DNA of 35,200 nucleotides, taken from assembly GCA_030611085.1 (NCBI GenBank), contig JAUWQI010000015.1, forward strand, positions 1 through 35,200, given 5' to 3'. The notes under the pieces are model-generated. The model made no database searches. It was not told the origin of the DNA and worked only from the letters and a program-made list of their open reading frames with translations. Shown here piece after piece: positions 12,274 to 20,887 of the stretch (positions are counted from its first letter, which is position 1; each line of letters opens with the position of its first letter). Source of the stretch: Dehalococcoidia bacterium (GTDB taxonomy: Bacteria; Chloroflexota; Dehalococcoidia; GIF9; AB-539-J10). The position numbers and the translations under genes were made by a program.

Positions 12274-12297
12274 GTAGTGGCGGGGTTTATCCCCGCC
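12274..12297. repeat. Hairpin repeat, GTAGTGGCGGGG family
   Basis: Stem GGCGGGG / CCCCGCC with loop TTTAT, preceded by GTAGT. Copies with decayed stems lie at 17964-17987 and 18114-18137. Confidence 0.75.
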
Positions 12298-16228: not shown

Positions 16229-16257
16229 CCCTTTGTAAGGGGCGAGGAATACCCGAG

Positions 16258-16275
16258 TTGCCCAATTTATTGGGC
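16258..16275. repeat. TTGCCCAATTTATTGGGC hairpin
   Basis: A short palindrome TTGCCCAATTTATTGGGC between groEL and its terminator. Related hairpins occur at 18052-18069 and 18256-18305. Confidence 0.6.
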
Positions 16276-17963: not shown

Positions 17964-17987
17964 GTAGTGGCGGGGTTCATCCCCACC
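17964..17987. repeat. Hairpin repeat, GTAGTGGCGGGG family
   Basis: GTAGTGGCGGGG, TTCAT, CCCCACC: same layout as 12274-12297 with one stem mismatch. Confidence 0.7.
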
Positions 17988-17996
17988 TCATGCCCC

Positions 17997-18018
17997 CGGT
18001 CGGGGACAAGCCCCGGCC
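17997..18018. repeat. Hairpin repeat, CGGGGACAAGCCCCG family
   Basis: CGGGGACAAGCCCCG flanked by GGT and GCC. It is the second copy of the element at 12113-12133. Confidence 0.7.
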
Positions 18019-18022
18019 CTTT

Positions 18023-18074
18023 GTAGTTGCTTGATTTATCAAGCCGAACCCTGCCCAATGAATTGGGCAACTAC
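18023..18074. repeat. Composite palindromic element
   Basis: Outer arms GTAGTTGC and GCAACTAC enclose two smaller hairpins, GCTTGATTTATCAAGC and TGCCCAATGAATTGGGCA. The same architecture with other inner stems recurs at 18256-18305. Confidence 0.7.
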
Positions 18075-18113
18075 ATATTTAAACATTAGCCTGCTGCCAT
18101 TTCAATACACTTT

Positions 18114-18137
18114 GTAGTGGCGGAGTTCATCCCCACC
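18114..18137. repeat. Hairpin repeat, GTAGTGGCGGGG family (decayed)
   Basis: GTAGTGGCGGAG, TTCAT, CCCCACC. The third copy of the element. Confidence 0.6.
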
Positions 18138-18255
18138 TCATACTCACCAGGAAAAATTGCTTGCTGTCCGCTAAATACTCCCAAGCATAGTACCTTTAGG
18201 TGATAGTCAAATTGTGAAACTTATGTTAACTTCAATTATCAAGGTGGTTAAAAAT

Positions 18256-18305
18256 GTGGTTGCCTAATTTATTGGGCAATAAAACCTGATGAATCAGGCA
18301 ACTAC
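18256..18305. repeat. Composite palindromic element, second copy
   Basis: Outer arms GTGGTTGCC and GGCAACTAC enclose TGCCTAATTTATTGGGCA and CCTGATGAATCAGG. Confidence 0.65.
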
Positions 18306-18310
18306 GTAGG

Positions 18311-18400
18311 GATAAATCCTAAACAATACCAAACCACTAATGACCAAAATTCAAAAGGGAAAAAGTTTTGATATTTGAATTTGGAATTTAGAATTTAAGG
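18311..18400. repeat. AT-rich dispersed repeat
   Basis: Contains CCTAAACAATACC, CACTAATGACCAAAATTCAA and TTTGATATTTGAATTTGG. Same family as 12145-12261. Confidence 0.6.
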
Positions 18401-18469
18401 TTGTTGAAATGCCCGAAATTGAACGGAAAAAATTAAACATCCTGGAAATGAAAACAGGAGGATTTGAAT

Positions 18470-20887
18470 ATGAAAGATAAACCTTCTATTAAAAGAATGT
18501 TAGACAAAGATGTTGGTGAGTTATTAAAAACGGAGCGAAGCCAGCGTAGGCAGATGGAGGATTTGTATACCGCCTTAGCGAATAGTTCACAGGTTGGCAT
18601 TTACATTGTCCAGGATGGAAAGTTTCGCTTCGTCAATCCACAGGGGCAGAAATACACAGGCTTCAGCCAGGATGAATTGCTGGGTATGGATTCTTTGAGG
18701 CTTATCCATCCCGAGGATAGGAAAATGACGAGGGAAAGTGCCATAAAGATGTTGCAGGGAGAGCGCTCTTCCCCCTATGAGTACAGACTTATTACTAAGG
18801 ACGGGAAGGTAAAGTGGTTCGTGGAGAAAGTCACACCCACACAGTATGGTGGAGAGCGAGCAACTCTAGGAAGCTACATGGACATCACCGAGCGAAAGCA
18901 AATGGAGGAGGAACTTAGAAAAGCTAGAGAGCAAGCCGAAACTGCCACCCGAGCTAAAAGCGACTTTCTAGCGAACATGAGCCATGAGATAAGAACCCCA
19001 ATGAATGGAATCATAGGTATGACGGAGCTGGCATTAAACACCGCTCTTACCACAGAACAGCGGGAATACCTGGAGATGGTGAAATCTTCGGCAGATTCTC
19101 TTTTAGGACTCCTCAATGACATACTGGACTTCTCCAAGATAGAGGCACAAAAACTAGAATTGGAGGAGATAGATTTCGACCTGGTTGGCCTGGTAGAGAA
19201 GACAGCAGCAAACTTAGCTTTAGAAGCTCATAACAAGAACCTTGAGCTCCTGTACGATATTGACCCCGAATTACAACCGGGATTAAGAGGCGACCCCCTG
19301 AGACTGACACAGATATTGGTAAATCTACTAGGGAATGCCATCAAGTTCACCGATAAAGGGGAGATAGTCCTTAAAGTAGAGGAGGCAGAATCAGTGCAAG
19401 AAGGCAAGGTCAAACTTCATTTCAGTGTCAAGGATACTGGTATAGGCATTCCTGAGGATAAGCAATCCAGGATATTTGAGACCTTTACTCAGTTGGATGA
19501 CTCAACAACTCGAAAATATGGCGGAACAGGACTTGGGCTGAGCATCACAAAGAGACTGATAGCGCTAATGGGCGGCGAAATCTGGGTCGAGAGCAAGGTA
19601 GGAATTGGCAGTACATTCCACTTTACTGCATTATTTAATATCCAGGACGAATATATGTCCATCTCCACACTAGAGGAAATCAATTTAAGTGGAATGCGCG
19701 CGCTCATTGTAGATGATAACAAAACAAATAGGCTCATATTGCACAAGATGCTCCAATCCTGGGGTATGAATCCATCGGCAGTGGGGAGCGGCGAGGAATG
19801 CCTGCAGGAACTAAAGAGAGTGAAGAGAACGAACCAGAAATATCAGCTTCTCTTGCTGGATTGTAACATGCCTGAGATGGATGGCTTCCAGGTTGCAGAG
19901 AGGGTGAAGAACATTGATGGATACCAGAACCTGACCATAATGATGCTAAGTAGTAGTGACTATAATAGAAATAAACAGCGATGTGCTGAGCTGGGAATAT
20001 CTTCATATCTGCTCAAGCCAGTACGCCCTTCGGCTTTAATGGATGCCATTACGGATATATTAGGGAAGAGGATGCCCCTCCCTGTCATTGTGAGCGAAGT
20101 GAAGCAATCTCATGTTACAAAAGAGGGATTACCAGAATTGAAAATATTATTGGCAGAGGACAACGCAGTCAATAAGAAACTCGCCACTAAATTATTGGAG
20201 AAACTCGGCCAAAATGTGGTGGCTGTAGAGAATGGGTTGGAGGTGTTAGATGCATTAAATAAGGATGAATATGACCTCATTTTGATGGATATCCAGATGC
20301 CCAAAATGGATGGCGTCGAAGCCACCAGAAGGATACGCCAAGCAGAAAATAAAGATAAGCATATCCCCATCATAGCTATCACGGCTCACGCTATGCAGGG
20401 CGATAGGGAAAGTTTCCTTGAAGCAGGCATGGATGATTATCTTTCCAAACCTCTGCATTTCGACCAGCTCTTCGAAATAATCAGGCGATACAGTCAATAC
20501 AAGAAAGGCTCTCTGATGCAAGATAAAGAGGATAATTTACTGCTGGACATTGAGGAATTCAAGAAACGCGTCGGTGGAGACGAGAACTTAATGCACGAAC
20601 TGTTTGAGATATATGCTGATGAGTGTGAGGAAAAACTCAACCGCATAAGAATTGCCGTTGAGGAAAAAGATAGCGAAAAACTGGAAAAATCTGCCCACAA
20701 CCTTAAAGGGGCTTCGGCAAATATTTCAGCCAAAGCAGTTTATGAGACAGCTTATGAATTGGAGAAGATAGGAACCTCTAAAGATATGTCCCAGACCACT
20801 GACGCTCTTAAAAGGCTGGAGAATAATCTAAGCAAAACCATAGAACAGATAAAAGCTGTCAGTTCCCAGCTTTCAGCAGTTAGCTGA
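18470..20887 (+). CDS. Hybrid histidine kinase: PAS, HisKA, HATPase, two receivers, Hpt
   Basis: The start is ATG 18470, with AGGAGG eight bases upstream (a TTG lies at 18464). Domains in order: PAS sensor (about 29-145), HisKA with phospho-His H172 in NMSHEIRTPMNG, HATPase (about 270-390, with the boxes DTGIGIPEDKQSRIFETF and YGGTGLGLSI), receiver 1 (D464), receiver 2 (D607) and a C-terminal Hpt domain with H743 in AHNLKGAS. There is no membrane segment, so sensing is cytoplasmic. The receiver-receiver linker (539-548, VIVSEVKQSH) is a dispersed repeat read in frame. The last residues (AVSSQLSAVS) also come from a repeat related to 21883-21948. A BarA/EvgS-type phosphorelay to the next gene is likely. 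Confidence 0.93.
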   Translation: MKDKPSIKRMLDKDVGELLKTERSQRRQMEDLYTALANSSQVGIYIVQDGKFRFVNPQGQKYTGFSQDELLGMDSLRLIHPEDRKMTRESAIKMLQGERSSPYEYRLITKDGKVKWFVEKVTPTQYGGERATLGSYMDITERKQMEEELRKAREQAETATRAKSDFLANMSHEIRTPMNGIIGMTELALNTALTTEQREYLEMVKSSADSLLGLLNDILDFSKIEAQKLELEEIDFDLVGLVEKTAANLALEAHNKNLELLYDIDPELQPGLRGDPLRLTQILVNLLGNAIKFTDKGEIVLKVEEAESVQEGKVKLHFSVKDTGIGIPEDKQSRIFETFTQLDDSTTRKYGGTGLGLSITKRLIALMGGEIWVESKVGIGSTFHFTALFNIQDEYMSISTLEEINLSGMRALIVDDNKTNRLILHKMLQSWGMNPSAVGSGEECLQELKRVKRTNQKYQLLLLDCNMPEMDGFQVAERVKNIDGYQNLTIMMLSSSDYNRNKQRCAELGISSYLLKPVRPSALMDAITDILGKRMPLPVIVSEVKQSHVTKEGLPELKILLAEDNAVNKKLATKLLEKLGQNVVAVENGLEVLDALNKDEYDLILMDIQMPKMDGVEATRRIRQAENKDKHIPIIAITAHAMQGDRESFLEAGMDDYLSKPLHFDQLFEIIRRYSQYKKGSLMQDKEDNLLLDIEEFKKRVGGDENLMHELFEIYADECEEKLNRIRIAVEEKDSEKLEKSAHNLKGASANISAKAVYETAYELEKIGTSKDMSQTTDALKRLENNLSKTIEQIKAVSSQLSAVS

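Follow-up and report, generated by a model that had tools for sequence, protein, structure and literature searches.

The window analysed here, a stretch of 35,200 nucleotides, is the entire contig C8 of a Dehalococcoidia MAG (1,160,811 bases, 30 contigs, 83% complete; G000, referred to below as the own genome). Two palindromic elements and a solitary hairpin lie in it, the second palindrome upstream of a gene for a PAS/histidine kinase/response regulator protein (Table 1). The first-pass annotation described the two palindromes as composites with constant arms and variable inner hairpins. The arms that it named, GTAGTTGC...GCAACTAC for copy 1 and GTGGTTGCC...GGCAACTAC for copy 2, match the DNA exactly, as does the solitary stem TTGCCCAATTTATTGGGC at 16258-16275. 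The constancy of the arms stands; the free variability of the inner hairpins does not, as only two fixed types occur, apart from compensatory variants, and an element almost always has one of each, joined by a short linker that falls into classes. Folded as single-stranded DNA, copy 1, copy 2 and the stem at 16258-16275 reach -11.5, -8.4 and -5.8 kcal/mol, and for each of the three none of 200 dinucleotide shuffles folded as well (z of -4.95, -3.25 and -4.13, respectively).

Table 1. REPINs, REPs, repeats and the adjoining gene in the window
Feature	Position	Strand	Remarks
Second-family REP	12274..12296	+	2 mismatches
Decayed REP, type A, singlet	16254..16275	+	CGAG replaces GTAG; downstream of Cpn60 gene
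Second REPIN family	17964..18018	.	REP GTAGTGGCGGGGTTCATCCCCAC (+), degenerate partner GGTCGGGGACAAGCCCCGGCC (-); adjoins REPIN copy 1
REPIN copy 1, whole	18023..18074	.	
REPIN copy 1, REP type B variant	18023-18044	+	GTAGTTGCTTGATTTATCAAGC
REPIN copy 1, linker			8 nt between the two REPs
REPIN copy 1, REP type A	18053-18074	-	GTAGTTGCCCAATTCATTGGGC
Second-family REP singlet	18114..18136	+	
MITE-like carrier of REPIN copy 2	18240..18442	+	left end CAAGGTGGTTAAAAAT (4 mismatches to GAGGCTGTTTAAAAAT), right end AAATTAAACATCC
REPIN copy 2, whole	18256..18305	.	
REPIN copy 2, REP type A	18256-18277	+	GTGG foot; then linker
REPIN copy 2, REP type B	18284-18305	-	
Dispersed AAATCCTAAAC...TTTAGAATTT repeat	18306..18403	.	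between REPIN and right half of carrier; approximate limits, by eye
PAS/histidine kinase/response regulator gene	18470..20887	+	start codon 27 nt after carrier right end

The second-family REPs on either side of copy 1 (17964-18018 and 18114) are exactly those that flank the RAYT L046 of genome G027. The dispersed repeat occupies the same slot in locus L274 and also follows other REPIN copies; in the form AAATCCTAAAC...AATGACCAAAATTCAAAAG...TTTAGAATTT it was seen beside REPINs in several genomes.

A family of unlike GTAG hairpin pairs

The constant arms are two facing copies of GTAGTTGC, each of which opens a hairpin. Read from the GTAG, the unit occurs as type A, GTAGTTGCCCAATTTATTGGGC (CCAAT), or type B, GTAGTTGCCTGATTYATCAGGC (CTGAT), both with variants. 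The pattern GTAGTTGC-N18..60-GCAACTAC has 41 perfect-arm copies in the own genome and none with the reversed control; single units GTAGTTGCYYRATNNAYYRRGC with at most two mismatches number 141 (71+70; control 0), and most of them, among the 100 of the 141 that were listed, lie in doublets. All 49 own-genome doublets, which were drawn from the 41 perfect-arm places and some of the 100 listed single-unit places, proved to be A+B under a classifier that also accepted AA and BB. In relatives A+B was found in 69 of 70 doublets of one set and in 36 of 36 of another; after removal of duplicates the rule holds for 150 of 151 distinct copies from 17 genomes. Equal units would give an outer stem of 22 uninterrupted base pairs, whereas A+B gives 9, and section 14 of a 2013 paper (PMC3733652) carries the suggestion that unlike pairs may escape nucleases that cut hairpins.

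The stems covary. Among all 113 distinct GTAGTTGC 22-mers, none of which was dropped, 55 pair at 6-7 of the 7 stem positions, compared with 30 of 2260 shuffles that pair at 6 and none at 7. Several pair types are seen at five of the seven stem pairs, the compensatory ones at stem positions 9-13.

The arms pattern was matched in 22 of the 100 genomes searched, the own one included. Eight genomes have at least five matches: G000 with 40 (a count that holds for the gap setting of this search, 41 being found with N18..60), G014 with 22, G017 with 18, G005 and G019 with 17 each, G026 with 14, G003 with 12 and G027 with 5. Genomes with one or two matches are not claimed as carriers because the reversed control also gives chance matches, one each in G009 and G059.

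The copies in G014 show where the doublet ends. Eleven of them, which share the linker TTTCCC, have exact GTAG/CTAC borders in varied and largely unrelated flanks, about half of them lying in one kind of repeat. Absence of common borders, which the first-pass annotation had named as the observation to count against its reading, does not apply, since the copies share exact borders. For the REPIN by itself the comparison of genomes yielded no clean empty site; the candidate offered by G026 and G003 is ambiguous and may be a deletion scar, because G003 keeps the GTAG and seven unrelated bases that are not explained.

The palindromes of the window are copies of a REPIN family, a kind of element that is itself already known. 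The GTAG tetranucleotide stands at the foot of a short palindrome, the inverted REP pair recurs as a unit far above chance, the copies have common borders in unrelated flanks, and in relatives a cognate RAYT is flanked by the same REPs (G026, G021 with a broken gene, and B_CHL_03). A RAYT in the same genome was not found in the own genome at 83% completeness; its presence is not strictly defining, since REPIN sets without a RAYT have been published for E. coli (PMC8049555).

It is very improbable that the palindromes instead belong to the neighbouring genes as terminators of transcription, or as RNA elements of another sort, and multiplied vertically. They are intergenic and fold stably, and one terminator-like site does overlap REPIN copy 2 on the - strand. 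Against this explanation, terminator-like sites are not in excess (3 found, 1.9 expected), Rfam gives no match, near-identical copies with common borders occupy dozens of unrelated loci, and one insertion has an empty site (see below). A residual regulatory role of the palindromes may nevertheless exist.

The cognate transposase in relatives

No RAYT and no Y1_Tnp (PF01797) was found in the own, 83%-complete genome; the Y1_Tnp domain is present in 14 of the 61 genomes searched. A close RAYT occurs only in G026, where it adjoins an A/B REPIN and is cut by the contig end, and in G021, where it is 71% identical and its reading frame is broken. Of the eight genomes that have five or more doublets, seven are without a close RAYT; most of these seven are 73-94% complete, one 68%.

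A scan of genome contigs turned up 98 relatives, of which 80 were kept, and an intact gene was among them. In the Dehalococcoidia genome B_CHL_03 a RAYT of 139 aa (L146:3001-3417) has an A/B-type REPIN on each side, the downstream one starting at the stop codon of the RAYT gene itself. The protein belongs to the Y1_Tnp family (44.2 bits, cut-off 23), and its best NCBIfam model is REP_Tyr_transpos (NF047646), at 68.4 bits, below the curated cut-off of 80. Its best PDB match is TnpArep (4er8), with which the HxH motif (HuH) and the catalytic Tyr region WQPxxxEHxIRN align. The alternative that the palindromes form the termini of an IS200/IS605 insertion sequence or of its derivatives, for which the name PATE-like is in use, is likewise very improbable. 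The transposase is indeed a Y1_Tnp and matches the IS200 model weakly (34.7 bits, cut-off 55), but the REP-associated model scores higher, the hairpins have a GTAG foot and lie as inverted pairs to either side of the gene, and the own genome showed no IS200-type transposase.

A tree of 37 RAYTs contains a clade of 21 rows, supported at 98/97. GTAG hairpins with an ATTYAT loop (or its complement) lie within 800 bases of 20 of these 21 genes and of 0 of 12 outside the clade; L176 had no hairpin, and the comparison left out four long-branch rows (L046, L048, L049 and L050). These four, too, are flanked by GTAG REPs, which are of other kinds and again form unlike pairs. RAYT genes across phyla are flanked by GTAG hairpins of the present kind. 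This association points to a RAYT that acts on exactly these REPs, and together with the G014 borders we infer from it that the family has RAYT-type mobility.

In many of the RAYT genes (L145-L224) the reading frame itself also contains GTAG-REP hairpins, which are often of the same type as the flanking REPs; examples lie at nt 117 in L147, L149, L151 and L154 and at nt 123 and 316 in L160. Such hairpins are found on the + strand at nt 70-170 in 23 of 80 genes and anywhere on the - strand in 37 of 80, with a density of 2.40 per kb in RAYT genes and 0.27 in 229 other long ORFs. The hairpin is kept while the residues that it encodes change, and in this clade it precedes the HuH motif. REPs inside RAYT genes have been reported before, for TnpA-REP subclass 2.4, where section 12 of that report places them mostly between HuH and Y (PMC6006769).

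The two close RAYTs share a locus, between or beside genes that, by their sequences, we take to be AmrS (radical-SAM) and AMMECR1. In G021 the RAYT lies between the two genes, and in G026 it lies beside AmrS, with the contig ending inside it. In the own genome this gap is occupied by two REPINs, with no RAYT. It contains REP remnants in G028 and, by eye, remnant-like stretches in G071 and G068, and it is compact in G017, G014, G031, G008 and others. Loss of the RAYT from the own-genome gap is plausible; alternatively, given the compact gaps in relatives, only the REPINs may have been received. At AmrS in G000, AmrS in G026 and the RAYT of B_CHL_03 the GTAG foot overlaps a stop codon. Insertion of REPINs at GTAG stop codons was considered and rejected, as 16 of 271 REPIN ends lie there against 5.2% of control GTAGs, which is no enrichment.

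A MITE that carries the doublets

Oriented with type A first, the own-genome copies have a common GTTTAAAAAT before the GTAG, with T at -1 in 90% and A at -6 in 88%. The larger unit reads GAGGCTGTTTAAAAAT-REPIN-AAAAATTTGGGG...CAAAATTAAACAGCC and is most commonly 132 bp long; its ends are GAGGCTGTTTAAAAAT/AAAATTAAACAGCCTC, and the REPIN sits in a fixed slot. The unit has the features of a MITE, being short and gene-free with terminal inverted repeats GAGGCTGTTTAA/TTAAACAGCC. Target-site duplications of at least 5 bp (5-8 bp) flank 25 of 48 rows, while 1,000 re-pairings of the flanks averaged 1.5 such rows and never gave more than 6; the other 23 rows are without a 5-bp duplication, as is the copy in the window. 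The 48 rows, 16 of them from the own genome, have distinct flanks, and they are not all independent events because a few are orthologues in related genomes (L063/L282, L064/L296, L308/L315 and L278/L334). At one site G003 is empty where G017 and G026 have a MITE, with the AT-rich target repeated on both sides. In 31 of 48 rows the right end is followed, at 19-28 nt, by a stretch resembling a ribosome-binding site and an open start codon; for the left end this is so in 1 of 48. The carrier in the window is enlarged by another repeat and shows no target duplication.

In the own genome 39 of the 49 doublets have a left flank like the MITE end, where shuffled flanks would lead one to expect 3.7%; the MITE right end lies within the stretch examined in 13 of 49. 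To judge by the 39 left flanks, a second transposition system probably brought in many own copies as its passengers, in place of a transposition directed by hairpins. The first-pass proposal of a non-autonomous element moved by a hairpin-recognising transposase is therefore right about the kind of element, which has common borders and a cognate transposase in relatives, and incomplete in two respects: the TnpA/REP-type transposase that is flanked by the same hairpins was found in relatives and not in the own genome, and the left flanks of most own copies resemble the end of a larger, DDE-type MITE.

We consider it very unlikely that the doublet is a mere internal part of this MITE family, immobile by itself, with the hairpins belonging to the structure of the MITE. 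The left flanks speak for such a reading. So does a right-end search of the own genome, which is unbiased in that it did not require a REPIN beside the left end as the 48-row search did (that search cannot count REPIN-free MITEs for this reason): among its 14 matches, 11 have a full doublet and 3 have remnants or clusters (L269 of this set is the copy at C17:21201), so none of them is a MITE without a REPIN or remnant. Three observations stand against such a reading, and the first two already contradict it. In G014, 17 of 22 copies lack either MITE flank and have borders at exactly GTAG/CTAC, so that not all REPIN copies are MITE passengers; RAYT genes across phyla are flanked by such hairpins with the MITE absent; and the scaffold itself occurs with other contents, with another REPIN family in the g6 genomes and with a REPIN-free interior in a unit of the same MITE kind in G082. 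In G019, G027 and G005 the same MITE ends enclose a different REPIN, GTAGTGCGAGGC.../GTAGTGCGACCC..., a type that is also found on the flanks of the G031 RAYT (L049).

Further arrangements were seen. Loci L393-L395 and L401-L404 of G019, G027 and G005 combine the MITE scaffold with a second REPIN family of the GTAGTGCG type; L404 has both REPIN families fused inside one scaffold, and L401 has two scaffolds in tandem. Copies in G003, G017 and G026 (L341, L349, L391 and L392 among them) are REPINs with GTTTAAAAAT and AAAATCCGGAG flanks inside another repeat, which has TGTCATTGC...GCAATGACA-like ends and is possibly a third scaffold.

An autonomous element with the same ends exists in a relative. 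G038 has a complete IS of 1,582 bases (L410 527-2108), whose left end, a criterion of the search, is identical to that of the MITE at 16 of 16 positions, and whose right end, which was not a criterion, is identical at 15 of 16. It encodes a transposase of 407 aa with a DDE_Tnp_1 domain. The best of 8 models is NF033551 (IS1182), at 187.9 bits; as this is below the curated cut-off of 270, the element is called IS1182-like. Among 84 genomes a full-length close copy is found only in G038, broken copies occur in G011 and G025, and three other genomes have distant relatives only; the search gave no candidate IS1182-like transposase in the own genome. The shared ends, target duplications and empty site argue for DDE transposition of the MITE, a second vehicle whose support is independent of that for the RAYT.

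In G000, G017, G019 and G026 the distance from a REPIN to the nearest contig end is in many cases no more than about 200 bases, and the IS ends L400, L407 and L408 stop at contig ends. It is therefore probable that MAG assemblies break at these repeats, and transposase genes may be hidden by them; the absence of a RAYT and of an IS1182-like transposase from the own genome is accordingly uncertain at 83% completeness.

Two possible vehicles

We hold with good confidence that the palindromes are REPINs, A+B doublets of GTAG units with a cognate RAYT in relatives, and that many REPIN copies spread inside a MITE mobilised by an IS1182-like element. In single-stranded DNA each unit folds as GTAG-TT-7-bp stem. 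A RAYT of the matching clade (TnpA-REP, a HuH/Y1 single-strand endonuclease) would bind the GTAG and the hairpin, nick beside the hairpin and copy or move the doublet; the own genome appears to have lost this enzyme, or never to have had it. The REPIN-bearing MITE of ~132 bp would be mobilised in trans by the IS1182-like DDE transposase. It prefers AT-rich sites just upstream of ribosome-binding sites, and the REPIN hairpins for that reason land in leaders or core promoters, where they might affect gene expression.

Much of this has precedents. REPINs and head-to-head GTAG REP dimers have been described with the GTAG foot, the 7-bp stem and the inverted doublet, dispersed and mainly intergenic, with a cognate RAYT (Bertels and Rainey 2011, PMC3116915; Di Nocera 2013, PMC3733652), and some GTAG families are exclusive heterodimers, namely GTAG-3 of enterics and GTAG-24 of P. 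aeruginosa (PMC3733652). What sets the present family apart is its new sequence, found in Dehalococcoidia, with an ATTYAT loop and the A and B stems; its abundance where no RAYT is detectable; and its frequent position inside a MITE. E. coli BIMEs (REP Y/Z pairs) with TnpA-REP share the unlike REP pairs, the GTAG guide and the HuH/Y1 enzyme, but E. coli REP stems are described as bulged, while the REPs here are short perfect palindromes (PMC8266576). In GTAG-15 of Anabaena variabilis, REP dimers regularly lie inside a palindrome that is not found without them, according to section 7 of the 2013 paper, a section that gives no explanation of the kind proposed here (PMC3733652). In the present case, by contrast, the palindrome is identified as a MITE: it has target duplications, an empty site and a related autonomous IS, and its REPIN cargo is exchangeable. 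The MITE resembles an IS1182-like IS in its ends and through the DDE_Tnp_1 transposase, and differs in that this transposase falls under the NCBIfam IS1182 cut-off and the interior of the MITE is a REPIN. Earlier work has thus put on record REPINs themselves, pairs of unlike REPs, the loss of RAYTs and the occurrence of REP dimers in palindromes (PMC3116915; PMC3733652; PMC8049555; PMC8266576; PMC6006769; PMC2817692). A MITE that carries REPINs as exchangeable cargo was not reported in the literature searched, which covered papers outside subscription, and on this ground such a cargo role of REPINs in a DDE-type MITE appears to be new.

Our results suggest, with about even chances, that REPINs have two vehicles, the RAYT and an IS1182-type MITE that takes at least two unrelated REPIN families in one slot and sets them 19-28 nt before start codons. 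REPIN theory has replication proceed only via a single-copy RAYT, and REPINs should therefore fade after the RAYT is lost. The RAYT-poor carrier genomes, with their large MITE-borne share, offer a testable second route of spread, and one by which hairpins could be delivered repeatedly to gene starts. If two vehicles do operate, REPIN populations could go on spreading once the RAYT is gone, the MITE would deliver hairpins in finished form to 5′ leaders or promoters, and the unexplained palindromes around cyanobacterial REP dimers would also be accounted for. The close match between RAYT clade and REP loop over many phyla is, in addition, a natural set for learning how the enzyme reads its hairpin.
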